Below, piece by piece: positions 30,820 to 36,106 of a DNA stretch of 64,000 nt. Source of the stretch: Rhodospirillum centenum SW (GTDB lineage: Bacteria > Pseudomonadota > Alphaproteobacteria > Azospirillales > Azospirillaceae); assembly GCF_000016185.1 (NCBI RefSeq), contig NC_011420.2, positions 1,074,501-1,138,500 on the forward strand. Reading direction: 5' to 3'. Below the pieces are notes generated by a model. The model worked only from the letters and a program-made list of their open reading frames with translations, did no database searches and had not been told where the DNA came from. Each line of letters begins with the position of its first letter. Position 1 is the first letter of the stretch. The position numbers and the translations under genes are program-made.

Positions 30820-31194
30820 ATGGACATCACGCCGCTGATCCCTGCCGACCGGCAGGTGATCGACACGTACGGGCCGGGCCGCTTCCGGATCAGCAACACG
30901 CTCTATGAGACGGCGGTCATCGTCTTTCCGGACCGGACCGTCCTCTGGGATATCGGCACCTTCGAGGGACTGGACGCGGCGAGCGTCCAGGCCGTGCGCA
31001 CGGCGGAGCCGCCGGTCGAACTGCTGCTGCTGGGCTGCGGGCCGCGGATGCGGTTGCTGCCCTCCGCCGTGAAGCAGGATCTGCGCCGGGCCGGCATCGT
31101 CGTGGAGGCGATGGACACCCCGGCCGCCTGCCGGACCTACAACGTCCTGCTGGCCGAAGGCCGCCGCGTCGCGGCCGCGCTGCTGCCGATCTGA
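30820..31194 (+). CDS. Mth938-like domain protein
   Basis: 124 residues. The pattern TYGPGRFRISNTLYETAVIVFPDRTVLWDI and LLLGCGPRMRLLPSAVKQDLRRAGIVVEAMDTPAACRTYNVLLAEGRRVAAALLP is that of the Mth938/NDUFAF3-related family, whose mitochondrial member helps assemble complex I. The gene normally follows secF in alphaproteobacteria. Three in-frame ATGs occur; the third (30820) has GGGGAGGAG at good spacing. The 3' end overlaps the convergent hpnE gene by 58 bp. Confidence 0.88.
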   Translation: MDITPLIPADRQVIDTYGPGRFRISNTLYETAVIVFPDRTVLWDIGTFEGLDAASVQAVRTAEPPVELLLLGCGPRMRLLPSAVKQDLRRAGIVVEAMDTPAACRTYNVLLAEGRRVAAALLPI

Positions 31195-32540
31195 TCCCGG
31201 AGCAGGATTGCCGCCGCCCGGTGGCCAGAGAGCACGGCCCCCTCGATGGTGGCCGGCAGGCCGGTATCGGTCCAGTCCCCCGCCAGCAGCAGGTTGTCCA
31301 GAGCCGTGCGCGGCCCTGGCCGGTCGGCCGCGATGCCCGGCGTGGCGGCGAAGGTCGCCCGCTTCTCCTTCACGATCCGATGGGCCGGCGGACAGGCGTC
31401 CGGCAGGCACAGGGCGCGGGCCACGTCGGACCAGAGCCGGACGGCAAGGGTGTCGCTGTCCTCCCCGATCAGGCGGTCGGCGGCGCTGACCGTGACCGAG
31501 AGGACGTCGCCACGCTGGAACAGCCACTCCGCCGTGCCGCCGATGAGCCCGAGCAGCGGCAATCCGCCGGGCAGGGCGACCGGCGCGGGCAACCGGAAGT
31601 GGGCGTTGAGGATGGCGCGATGTTCCGCGGGGACGCGCAGGCCGGGCAGCAGGTCCGCCGCCTGCCAGGCGGGAACCGCCAGCACGACCCGGTCTTCCGG
31701 CGCCAGGGCGACCGTCTGCCCGCCCTCGAACCGCAGGGCCGCCACGGCGCCGTTCCCGACCTCCAGGGTGCGCAGCCGGGCATGGAAACGCAGCTCCGCC
31801 CCCGTTCCGGCCAGGAAGGCGAGGGCGGGATCGACCAGCGCCTCCGACAGGCCCTCGCAGGCGATGTGCGGCCGGCACGCCGCTTCGCCCTTCAGCAGCG
31901 TCTGCGACAGCACGCTCCAGAGCAGCCGGGCCGAGGCGGCCTCCGGTTCGGTGTTGAGGATGGAGACGGCCAAGGGGCGCCAGAGCCGCCGGCCCAGGGT
32001 CGTATCGAGCGGCAGCATCGCCGCCACGGTGGCATCGGCGCCGGCCAGGGACAGACGCAGGGGCGCCAGATGCGGCAGGGCCGCGGCCCCGGCGACGCGG
32101 CGCGCCGGGTCCAGCAGCCAGAGCGGCAGCGGTCCCGCGCCGGGGCGCACGGTCCAGGTGCTGCCGTCGGCCAGATCGTGGAACGGGATCGCGGCCGGGG
32201 CGACGGGGCGGAGCCCGTCCCGCCCGCCGGTCCGGTCGAGATAGCGGAAGGTCTCCGGATTGGCGCCCAGGATCAGGTGGTTGCCGTTGTCGATCCGGCA
32301 GCCCAGACGGGCATCCCCGTAGCTGCGGCAGCGCCCGCCGGCCTGCGTCGCCGCTTCGTAGAGGGTGACCGGCCTGCCGGTCGCTGCGAGGGTCGTCGCA
32401 CAGGCAAGCCCGGCCAGCCCGGCGCCGACGACATGGATGCGGGCATCGGCGCCGGCACCATGCCGGGCAGGGGATCGGGGGAAGGAAGACACGCGCGGGC
32501 CGTTCGTGCTCTCAGGTCCGGGGCGGATGCCCGATGGCAC
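31137..32540 (-). CDS. hpnE: Hydroxysqualene dehydroxylase HpnE
   Basis: 467 residues of the amine-oxidase/phytoene-desaturase FAD family: N-terminal IHVVGAGLAGLACATTLAATGRPVTLYEA is the dinucleotide-binding fold, GGRCRSY and DNGNHLILGAN follow, and the C-terminal FAD motif is LLLAGDWTDTGLPATIEGAVLSG. HpnE reduces hydroxysqualene to squalene in hopanoid synthesis, after HpnD and HpnC, which are encoded immediately upstream. The start is uncertain: ATG at 32540 overlaps hpnCD by 29 nt; GTG at 32492 is an alternative. The last 19 codons lie antisense to the Mth938-like gene. Confidence 0.92.
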   Translation of the reverse strand: MPSGIRPGPESTNGPRVSSFPRSPARHGAGADARIHVVGAGLAGLACATTLAATGRPVTLYEAATQAGGRCRSYGDARLGCRIDNGNHLILGANPETFRYLDRTGGRDGLRPVAPAAIPFHDLADGSTWTVRPGAGPLPLWLLDPARRVAGAAALPHLAPLRLSLAGADATVAAMLPLDTTLGRRLWRPLAVSILNTEPEAASARLLWSVLSQTLLKGEAACRPHIACEGLSEALVDPALAFLAGTGAELRFHARLRTLEVGNGAVAALRFEGGQTVALAPEDRVVLAVPAWQAADLLPGLRVPAEHRAILNAHFRLPAPVALPGGLPLLGLIGGTAEWLFQRGDVLSVTVSAADRLIGEDSDTLAVRLWSDVARALCLPDACPPAHRIVKEKRATFAATPGIAADRPGPRTALDNLLLAGDWTDTGLPATIEGAVLSGHRAAAILLRDQIGSSAAATRRPSASRTL

Positions 32541-34248
32541 AGCGCAGTGCCGTCATGACCTTTTCCCGCCTGGTCAGGACGGGGCGGTCGGCCAGCTCGG
32601 ACCAGCCGCGTGCCGTCATGCGGTCGAGCAGGCGGCGATAGAGCAGCATCATCGCCACCGCGGGCCAGAGCATCCGGCAGTCCTGGCGGGGCAGCGCCTC
32701 CTGTGCCTCCACGAAGCGGGCATCCGCCCGGGCCGCCACACTCTCGCAGACGCGGGCGACGGCGGGATCGGCCAGCACCGCGGCGGGCTCCACCTCCGTG
32801 CCGTCGCTCAGCAGACCGGCCTGGGCCAGCGCCTCCCGCGGCAGGTAGAGGCGGCCCAGGGCCGCATCCTCGGTCAGGTCGCGCAGGATGTTGGTGAGTT
32901 GCAGCGCCTCCCCGAGCGCGATGGCGAAGCGGTCATGCCGGTCGTCGGGGGAGCCGAAGACCCGTACCGCCAGCATGCCGACCGCACCTGCGACCCGGCG
33001 ACAGTAGAGGGTCAGATCCTCCTGCGACGGCGCCCGGATCGGGCCTTCGAGATCCATCGCCATGCCGTCCACGATGGCGTCGAACTCGGCCCGGGGCAGC
33101 GCGTAGTGCCGGACCGCCTCGGCCAGATCGCGCAGCAGCGGATCGGCGATGCCGCCCTCATCGCCATACACCGCGTCCAGCCGGCGGCGCCAGTCGGACA
33201 GGGCGGCCCGCTTGGCTTCCAGCGGCCCCGGCTCGTCCGCGATGTCGTCAACCTGCCGGCAGAAGGCGTAGACGGCGAACATGGCGCGGCGCTTGGCGGC
33301 CGGCAGGAAACGCAGGGGCCAGTAGAAGGTGCTGGTGCGAGAACCCGCCGCGCCGCCAGTCCGCCGGCGTGCCTTCGGCCGGGCAGCGATGCCGTCGCCG
33401 ACCCCGCGCAGGACGGCGCCCAGCTTGACCATGCCCTTCAGCTCGATCCGTTCGGCCAGGGGATCGCGGCGGCGCAGCTCGCGCGCCAGGGACCGGGCCA
33501 GCCGGATGATGACGGCGGTCTCCAGCCGCAGGCCGCGGTCGGCGATCTGGCGGGGCAGGGTGTCCGCCCGCAGCAGCAGGGCGTCCACCTCGTCCAGGCA
33601 GCGGTCGATGACCGCGCGGACGGCCGGGGTCGCCGCCGTCTCCACCAGTTGCTCCGGGTCGCCGCCGGCCTCACGGAACCACGTCGTGGGCAGGTAGCAC
33701 CGTCCCAGATCGACCCAGTCGGTCCGGCAGTCCTGGAGGTGGTTGATGATCTGGAGCGCGCTGCACAGCGCATCCGCGGCCGGTGCGGCCGCCATCGGTT
33801 CTCCGTGCAGTTCCAGCAGATACCGGCCGACGGGATTGGCGGAATAGCGGCAGTAGAGCAGCAGGTCCGCCCACTGCTTGCAGCGGCCGCAATGGGCATC
33901 GCGCCGGAAGGCCTGGAGCATCTGCCGGGCGTGCAGGCCGGAGACGCCGGTGGCGGCCAGACTGGCCTTGAGCTGAAGGGCCGGGGCCAGCCAGGTCTGG
34001 GCGCCGATGCCGCTGACCAGCGCGCGCTCCAGCGCGTCGAGCTGGGCGATCTTCATCTCGGGATCGAGGTTCGGATCGTCGGCGATGTCGTCCGCCAAGC
34101 GGACGAAGGCATAGAACGCCATGACGTGCGGCCGCAGGTGCTTGGGCACCAGCCGCGAGGCGACCGGGAAATTCTCTTCCCCCGCGCTCTTCCGGGGAGC
34201 GGGCTCCGACTGTTCCGGAACCAGGGGGGCGGTACGGAAATCGGCCAT
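32512..34248 (-). CDS. hpnCD: HpnC-HpnD fusion: hydroxysqualene synthase plus presqualene diphosphate synthase
   Basis: 578 residues in one uninterrupted frame. Residues ~20-280 are HpnC: ENFPVASRLVPKHLRPHVMAFYAF, first aspartate motif DDIAD at 53-57, second motif DCRTD at 173-177. A basic linker (ARPKARRRTGGAAGSR, about 285-305) leads to HpnD: STFYWPLRFLP, DDIAD at 334-338, LRDLTEDAALGRLYLP from about 455. Both halves keep their prenyl-diphosphate Mg-binding Asp sets. HpnD couples two farnesyl diphosphates to presqualene diphosphate, and HpnC turns that into hydroxysqualene, which HpnE reduces. The genes are normally separate, so the fusion would channel intermediates. ATG at 34248 is preferred (GAGGG upstream); a TTG five codons earlier is possible. 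Confidence 0.93.
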   Translation of the reverse strand: MADFRTAPLVPEQSEPAPRKSAGEENFPVASRLVPKHLRPHVMAFYAFVRLADDIADDPNLDPEMKIAQLDALERALVSGIGAQTWLAPALQLKASLAATGVSGLHARQMLQAFRRDAHCGRCKQWADLLLYCRYSANPVGRYLLELHGEPMAAAPAADALCSALQIINHLQDCRTDWVDLGRCYLPTTWFREAGGDPEQLVETAATPAVRAVIDRCLDEVDALLLRADTLPRQIADRGLRLETAVIIRLARSLARELRRRDPLAERIELKGMVKLGAVLRGVGDGIAARPKARRRTGGAAGSRTSTFYWPLRFLPAAKRRAMFAVYAFCRQVDDIADEPGPLEAKRAALSDWRRRLDAVYGDEGGIADPLLRDLAEAVRHYALPRAEFDAIVDGMAMDLEGPIRAPSQEDLTLYCRRVAGAVGMLAVRVFGSPDDRHDRFAIALGEALQLTNILRDLTEDAALGRLYLPREALAQAGLLSDGTEVEPAAVLADPAVARVCESVAARADARFVEAQEALPRQDCRMLWPAVAMMLLYRRLLDRMTARGWSELADRPVLTRREKVMTALRCAIGHPPRT

Positions 34249-34456: not shown

Positions 34457-35083
34457 TCAGAGGACGCCGCCGTTCCGGATGGCGGACAGGCGCTCGTTGA
34501 CGGCGGTCCAGTTCACCGTGTTCCACCACGCGGCCAGATAGTCGGCGCGGCGGTTCTGGTACTTCAGGTAATAGGCGTGCTCCCACACGTCGTTGCCCAT
34601 CAGCACCGGCTTGCCGTCCATCAGCGGCGTGTCCTGGTTCGGACGCGCGACGATCTCCAGCTTGCCGGCGGGATCGACGGTGACGAAGACCCAGCCCGAG
34701 CCGAACTGCTTGGTGCCGGCCTCGTTGAACTTCTTCTTGAAGTCCTCGAAGGCGCCGAAGTCGCGGGCGATGGCTTCCCCGACCGCGCCGGTCGGCTCAC
34801 CGCCGCCGTTCGGCCCCATGATGGTCCAGAACATGCTGTGGTTGGCGTGGCCGCCGCCATTGTTGCGCACGGCGGTGCGGATGCCCTCCGGCAGTTCGCC
34901 CAGCCGCTTCAGCAGGTCGGTCAGCGACAGGCCATGCAGCTGGCTGTGCTCGGCCAGGGCGTTGTTCAGGTTCGTGACGTAGGCCTGATGATGCTTGCCA
35001 TGGTGCAGGCCCATGGTCTGCGCATCGATGTGCGGCTCCAGCGCCGTCACGTCATAGGTAAGGTCCGGGAGGGTGAAGGCCAT
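34457..35083 (-). CDS. sod: Superoxide dismutase (Fe/Mn family)
   Basis: 208 residues. Metal ligands in family positions: MGLHHGKHHQAYV (first His), NNGGGHANHSMFW (second His), and DVWEHAYYLKYQNRRADYL (Asp and third His). GGGHANHSMFW is the form seen in Mn or cambialistic enzymes rather than the Fe-type AAQVWNHTFYW. No signal peptide, so it is cytoplasmic. Metal choice cannot be fixed from sequence. Single gene, transcribed away from the squalene-synthase-like gene. Confidence 0.95.
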   Translation of the reverse strand: MAFTLPDLTYDVTALEPHIDAQTMGLHHGKHHQAYVTNLNNALAEHSQLHGLSLTDLLKRLGELPEGIRTAVRNNGGGHANHSMFWTIMGPNGGGEPTGAVGEAIARDFGAFEDFKKKFNEAGTKQFGSGWVFVTVDPAGKLEIVARPNQDTPLMDGKPVLMGNDVWEHAYYLKYQNRRADYLAAWWNTVNWTAVNERLSAIRNGGVL

Positions 35084-35260: not shown

Positions 35261-36106
35261 ATGGCCCCCTCCGATCTATCCTACTGCGCCGATCAGGTAC
35301 GCCGGTTCGATAACGACCGCTTCCTGACGGCCCTGTTCGCGCCCGCCGACCGCCGCGAGGACCTGTTCGCGCTCTACGCCTGCAATCTTGAGGTCGCCAA
35401 GACGCGCGAGGTGGTGAGCGAGGCGACGCTGGGCCTGATCCGGCTGCAGTGGTGGCGGGATGCGCTGGAGGGGATCGGCCGGGGCGAGGTGCGGCGGCAC
35501 GAGGTGGTGGAGGCACTGGCCGGCACCATCGGACGCCATGGCCTGGACTCTGCCCGTCTCGACCGGCTGATCGAGGCGCGCGAGGCCGATCTGGAGGAGG
35601 GGCCGCCGGCCAGCCTCGTTGCCCTCACCGCCTATGCCGAGGCCACCGCGGCGCCGCTGGCCCAGCTCGCGCTGGAGGTTCTGGGGGTGCGCCAGGACGC
35701 GGCGATGGAGGCGGCGCGCCATGCCGCCACGGCCTGGGCGCTCACCGGCGTGCTGCGCGCGGTCCCGTTCCATGCTTCGCATCAGCGCCTGCTGCTGCCG
35801 GCCGACCTGATGGCGTGCCATGGCGTGCCGGAGACGGCACTGTTCGCCGGGACGCCGCCGGCGGGACTCGCGGCTGTCGTCCAGGTGGTCGCGGAGGAGG
35901 CGTCTCGGCGTCAGGCGCAGGCCCGGGCGCTGCGCCGGCAGGTGCCGGCCGCGGCCCTGCCGGCCCTGCTGACGGGGCCGCTCTGCGACCTTTATCTCAC
36001 CGCTCTGGCAAAGGCGGGATTCGACCCCTTCGCACCGCGGATGCAGATGCCCCACCCGCTGCGTCAGCTCCGTCTGGGCTGGGCCGCGCTGACCGGGCGC
36101 TGGTAA
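35261..36106 (+). CDS. Squalene/phytoene synthase family protein (NDUFAF6-like)
   Basis: 281 residues of the trans-isoprenyl diphosphate synthase fold: DRFLTALFAPADRREDLFALYACNLEVAKTREVVSE and LIRLQWWRDALEGI are typical of the NDUFAF6-like branch. The first Asp motif is replaced by NLEVAKTRE, so catalysis on prenyl diphosphates is doubtful. In eukaryotes this branch helps complex I assembly; the bacterial role is unknown. Its neighbour at 30.8 kb (Mth938/NDUFAF3-like) belongs to another complex I assembly-factor family, so the pair may share that function. It is not a third hopanoid synthase, as judged by the lost Asp motif. Confidence 0.85.
   Translation: MAPSDLSYCADQVRRFDNDRFLTALFAPADRREDLFALYACNLEVAKTREVVSEATLGLIRLQWWRDALEGIGRGEVRRHEVVEALAGTIGRHGLDSARLDRLIEAREADLEEGPPASLVALTAYAEATAAPLAQLALEVLGVRQDAAMEAARHAATAWALTGVLRAVPFHASHQRLLLPADLMACHGVPETALFAGTPPAGLAAVVQVVAEEASRRQAQARALRRQVPAAALPALLTGPLCDLYLTALAKAGFDPFAPRMQMPHPLRQLRLGWAALTGRW

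Follow-up and report, generated by a model that had tools for sequence, protein, structure and literature searches.

The fused hpnCD gene of Rhodospirillum centenum: a previously described arrangement, its distribution among relatives and the fate of squalene

The reactions of HpnC, HpnD and HpnE are given in PMC5462960 and PMC6439483, where the three steps are attributed by description to the proteins of Zymomonas mobilis and Rhodopseudomonas palustris (Pan et al. 2015, as cited there). The R. centenum proteins belong to the same families. In Z. mobilis and R. palustris the enzymes are separate polypeptides and the organisms are described as hopanoid producers, whereas R. centenum carries HpnC and HpnD in one chain and has no detectable shc. 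A fused hpnCD gene was described by Damsté et al. (2017; PMC5462960) in Acidobacteria, Actinobacteria and Alphaproteobacteria, and Rhodospirillum centenum was named. By that description, the fused gene of subdivision-2 Acidobacteria, Actinopolyspora and Blastococcus saxobsidens is, like that of R. centenum, a single gene roughly double the usual size, and in the Acidobacteria it lies within an hpnC-D-E cluster. The engineered CrtE-HpnD fusion of R. palustris TIE-1 is similar to hpnCD in that a squalene-pathway enzyme is joined to its neighbor by a flexible linker, but it is man-made and contains another upstream enzyme; the squalene content rose with this fusion (PMC6439483).

The HpnC-HpnD fusion is a known arrangement and not a discovery. 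A sequence-only reading of the R. centenum DNA had taken the fusion to be undescribed, and that claim fails: the fusion has been in print for this organism since 2017 (PMC5462960), which settles the matter of novelty. No biochemical study of a natural HpnC-HpnD fusion was found among the titles and abstract openings of the open-licence PMC papers listed.

The window analyzed here is a stretch of 64,000 nucleotides of the R. centenum SW genome. The features of the locus are as follows.

32512..34248, minus strand: hpnCD, fused HpnC-HpnD gene of 578 amino acids, with ATG at 34248 and stop at 32514-32512.
33403..34188, minus strand: HpnC domain, residues 21-282 (TIGR03464), with motifs DDIAD at 53-57 and DCRTD at 173-177.
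33337..33402, minus strand: basic linker, about residues 283-304, with model pLDDT below 50 at 293-305.
32533..33345, minus strand: HpnD domain, residues 302-572 (TIGR03465), with motifs DDIAD at 334-338 and DLTED at 457-461.
31137..32540, minus strand: hpnE, hydroxysqualene dehydroxylase (TIGR03467, 389.1 bits against a cut-off of 283.05; also matched by Pfam).

The single 578-residue frame with both domains, as proposed by the sequence-only reading, was confirmed by translation, Pfam and the TIGR models; it lies on the minus strand, which that reading had left unstated. The positions it gave for the four Asp-rich motifs are exact, and the basic linker of about 20 residues contains RPKARRR. 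Its placement of the gene directly upstream of hpnE was borne out by the TIGR03467 match that comes next on the same strand. The order C-D-E on one strand, with hpnE directly downstream of hpnCD, is the one described for most bacteria. A plus-strand reading of 32512-34248 was discarded; its translation is an open frame in which no family content was recognized.

Two SQS_PSY matches are detected by Pfam in the hpnCD protein. The whole protein scores 383.2 bits with TIGR03465 and 376.8 bits with TIGR03464, each value being a sum over two stretches. When scanned alone, the HpnD half gives 291.7 bits with TIGR03465 (cut-off 278.6) and 136.6 with the HpnC model. The HpnC half alone gives 250.4 bits with TIGR03464, 0.05 below the cut-off of 250.45, and 103.4 with the HpnD model. 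Each half favors its own model by far. Across the family TIGR03464 exceeds its cut-off in 34 of 82 genomes and stays below it in 48. The residues D53, D54, D57, D173, D177, D334, D335, D338, D457 and D461 are invariant among 20 aligned fused-frame sequences, which include the frameshifted locus (L026) of genome G045 discussed below.

A GAGG-type stretch resembling a ribosome-binding site is seen by eye just 5' of the hpnCD ATG, and TTG 34263 is an alternative start. For hpnE, the candidate starts are GTG 32540, which overlaps hpnCD, and GTG 32492, 19 nt past the hpnCD stop; the latter is more likely from the sequence as read by eye. The R. centenum linker contains no ATG, GTG or TTG codon, and the in-frame ATG nearest to HpnD lies 33 residues ahead of the HpnD domain, within HpnC, an arrangement that speaks against independent initiation of HpnD in this organism. 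Possible start codons are present in or near the linker of several members of the same clade, where HpnD may be translated separately.

A sequencing or assembly artefact, in which a missed stop or an indel joins two genes on paper, was considered for the R. centenum frame. Precisely this situation is found in a relative, G045, where the fusion exists only through a frameshift close to where hpnC ends, with the native HpnC tail and its stop in another frame. G045 was rejected as an independent fusion, and its frameshift may be either real or technical. The HpnC tail of the R. centenum protein, however, continues in the correct frame through the GAVLxGVxRGxxxRP region into the linker, and the multiple alignment shows it in the same reading frame as in the 10 other clade members included. 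Thirteen further members of the clade have the same architecture. Between relatives of genus g12, nearly all codon differences in the linker stretch are synonymous, with synonymous/nonsynonymous codon counts of 6/0, 12/1, 10/2, 5/0 and 11/1 (44/4 in total) for five pairs that carry the same fusion and overlap in that two genomes are used twice. The stretch compared is 41-42 codons long, the final ten codons of the HpnC match being part of it, and its pattern resembles that of the domains. The GC content at the third codon position is 0.83-1.00 throughout the gene, and hpnCD lies within a single-contig genome of 4,355,543 bases, with which the window agrees fully across the 8,501 bases that were compared. 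An artefact is thereby extremely improbable. A missed stop near the linker, for which the sequence-only reading proposed a check, is not indicated by these comparisons of tail frame, clade sharing and codon differences.

The distribution of the fusion was surveyed at three levels. In the family, TIGR03464 matched 82 of 82 genomes at E <= 0.001, and both domains were present in the fetched DNA of 81 of them, with G053 left out. HpnC and HpnD share one frame in 16 of the 81, or 15 once G045 is removed: R. centenum, G052, G054, G055 and all 11 genomes of g12, the genus of Niveispirillum lacus (G070). The sequence-only reading had named a common and already described fusion in the family as a point against its claim; the 15 of 81 genomes and the description in PMC5462960 are just that. 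In a class-wide draw, HpnC was detected at E <= 1e-60, a threshold that misses more divergent fused copies, in 137 of 385 genomes. Ten of these 137 are fused (G000, G068, G070, G202, G213, G305, G307, G325, G390 and G404) and 127 are not. Every genome with a frame of at least 500 amino acids, 22 in all, was examined, and shorter frames were counted as not fused because they are too short for both domains.

A scan of named genomes gave at least 11 fused, at least 50 separate, at least 10 HpnC-only and at least 9 HpnD-only loci among the 80 matches listed; because the query was an alignment of fused proteins and the loci are those listed, the share of 11 in 80 gives no frequency. The fused loci among these matches include Microvirga, Roseomonas, Roseococcus, Rubritepida, Pseudoroseomonas, Acetobacter sacchari and an Inquilinus MAG. 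The frameshift check among fused frames beyond the clade of R. centenum was confined to G045. We are least sure of the fusions in Acetobacter sacchari (L161) and Omnitrophota (L171). The latter, from a Candidatus Omnitrophota MAG, is a possible fused frame outside the Alphaproteobacteria with a weak HpnC score of 170 bits. An apparent fusion in Azospirillum brasilense was rejected; the tblastn match ran across a stop, and separate genes were found by six-frame analysis. A search of a phage collection returned two weak matches, both in Staphylococcus aureus phage records (OR849911.1 and OR844999.1), where an unannotated stretch shares about 30 per cent identity with residues 308-476 of HpnD. 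This stretch may have come into the assembly from the host.

In a tree of the joined domains, R. centenum, G054, G055 and the 11 g12 genomes form one clade (SH-aLRT 99), and all 14 of its 14 genomes keep the fusion. The sister group is made up of G045 and 49 genomes in which the genes are separate, 50 in all. Ten rows form a second fused clade (SH-aLRT 99), with Microvirga, the Roseomonas group, f15, G052 and the Inquilinus MAG. The state changes between fused and separate at least 4 times on the 110-row tree and at least 7 times on a larger tree of 166 scored rows, counts that are rough, as both trees come from fast searches and contain several long branches. The larger tree was built without L171 (low HpnC score), L156 (a duplicate of G070) and the single-domain loci.

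Within the clade of R. centenum the fusion most likely arose once, in an ancestor of R. centenum, g12 (with Niveispirillum lacus) and the neighboring genera g6 and g7. The route would have been loss of the stop between adjacent, co-oriented hpnC and hpnD genes. In all five g13 genomes and in G001, where hpnC and hpnD are separate, a possible HpnD ATG is located at -4 from the base after the HpnC stop (ATGA, a 4-nt overlap), although other candidate HpnD starts exist in 4 of these 6 genomes. Since these six genomes belong to the sister group, the simplest route would start from overlapping genes and combine loss of the stop with a small indel. The two genes are farther apart in the Azospirillum-like g3.

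The structure of the fused protein was predicted with AlphaFold2 using 20 sequences. Two confident helical domains are obtained (mean pLDDT 87, pTM 0.52), joined by the poorly predicted linker. The low pTM makes the model silent on domain packing and channeling. Foldseek ranks a CrtM-like enzyme, dehydrosqualene synthases and HpnC (4HD1) as the best PDB matches. With phmmer, 4HD1 is matched by residues 24-255, and phytoene and dehydrosqualene synthases are matched by the HpnD half. The model supports two intact enzymes on a tether.

The hpnCD protein would consist of two domains of the squalene/phytoene-synthase fold connected by a short flexible tether. From family knowledge, the C-terminal HpnD domain is predicted to convert two molecules of farnesyl diphosphate to presqualene diphosphate, and the N-terminal HpnC domain to convert presqualene diphosphate to hydroxysqualene. 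Reduction of hydroxysqualene to squalene would then fall to HpnE, encoded by the next gene. We regard it as very probable that hpnCD encodes a single bifunctional protein that acts in this order, D before C with HpnE next, and that the fusion has a single origin within its clade by stop loss.

It is plausible that having both steps in one chain is advantageous. The chances are about even, however, that the fusion, though real, does no more than supply the two enzymes in equal amounts, with each acting independently and presqualene diphosphate not being channeled. The short, low-confidence linker and a model that does not predict domain packing are in keeping with this alternative, as are the unfused majority of HpnC-bearing genomes in the class sample (127 of 137) and the occurrence of the fusion in several lineages whose sister lineages keep separate genes. 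On the other side, retention in every genome of the clade is allowed, but not predicted, by neutral drift. As a bifunctional enzyme, hpnCD could serve squalene engineering as a ready-made two-step catalyst, and could be used to test whether tethering two consecutive terpenoid steps alters the release of presqualene diphosphate.

In Azospirillum brasilense, hpnCDE is used for carotenoids via squalene, and the carotenoids need hpnCDE together with crtNPOQ (PMC13274349). By analogy, hpnCD of R. centenum might serve carotenoid synthesis, either C30 via squalene or another C30/C40 product, with squalene not the end product. The second, divergent fused clade lends this some weight. In Microvirga, Roseococcus, Rubritepida and G052, HpnC and HpnD share one frame as in R. 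centenum, but this separate clade differs in adjoining CrtN/CrtP-like genes: CrtP-like frames, partial and at the locus edge, in L159, L164, L166 and L167, and both CrtN-like and CrtP-like genes in G052. The fused protein of G052 (L237) is 43 per cent identical to R. centenum hpnCD. These neighbors suggest that the second clade is a fused version dedicated to carotenoids.

No CrtN/CrtP pair was found in the R. centenum genome, where the only CrtI-family matches at E <= 1e-40 are CrtI (607 bits) and a CrtD-like protein (267 bits). These same two proteins are the best matches to A. brasilense CrtN, with 36 and 33 per cent identity. The CrtI and CrtB-like genes lie together, with the CrtD-like gene nearby and hpnCDE about 1 Mb away. 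An internal stop suspected in the CrtD-like gene proved to be its natural end. The crtFEDCBI genes are reported in one photosynthesis cluster of the R. centenum SW chromosome (PMC2890560). A carotenoid role for hpnCD in R. centenum appears unlikely.

The usual consumers of squalene were sought in the R. centenum genome. Squalene-hopene cyclase (TIGR01507, PF13243) and squalene epoxidase (PF08491) were not found, and the best HpnH match scores 30.3 bits against a cut-off of 225.05; the HpnH and squalene epoxidase searches covered this genome. Because hopanoids or C30 carotenoids normally account for squalene in bacteria, the missing squalene user is a better question than the fusion. The cyclase is detected in 40 of 82 family genomes. 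Both the cyclase and a CrtN/CrtP pair are missing from 21 of the 81 family genomes in the tree (R. centenum and G045 included; 20 of 80 relatives), where CrtN/CrtP calls in relatives are score classes (about 496-552 and 402-433 bits) and not trees. In each of the 21, HpnC and HpnD are present and the retrieved DNA also gives an HpnE-like match. HpnC, HpnD and an HpnE-like neighbor are kept, with no detectable squalene user of the two usual kinds, in R. centenum and 9 of 11 g12 genomes, both fused, and in some ten Azospirillum-like genomes. In these organisms squalene itself, or the product of an unrecognized enzyme, may possibly have a role, for instance in membranes or cysts, a tentative proposal. 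The absence of a user says as much about the reach of the models as about the organism, and we treat it as a lead. The absence of shc from genera such as Niveispirillum is stated in PMC12583986. The main texts of the R. centenum transcriptome and genome papers contain no instance of hopan, squalene or hpn, and besides the fused gene no statement on squalene or hopanoids in R. centenum was found in the open-licence PMC literature.

A link between the fusion and loss of the cyclase was examined and rejected. The cyclase is present in 0 of 15 fused and 40 of 65 separate family genomes (naive Fisher p 1.2e-5), but the independent pairs behind them number only two within the family and four across the tree as a whole, and the sign test is not significant. 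In other families, 6 of 7 fused genomes contain the cyclase, which counts against such a link.

A third protein of the SQS_PSY family is encoded at 35261-36106 on the plus strand. It scores 185 bits with the Pfam model and far below the HpnC and HpnD cut-offs. The gene points away from hpnCD, and a superoxide dismutase gene (34457-35083, minus strand) separates the two. No DDxxD motif was seen by eye in the protein, which we take to be reminiscent of NDUFAF6-like proteins. A similar weak match is located on the strand opposite hpnC at many loci of the family.
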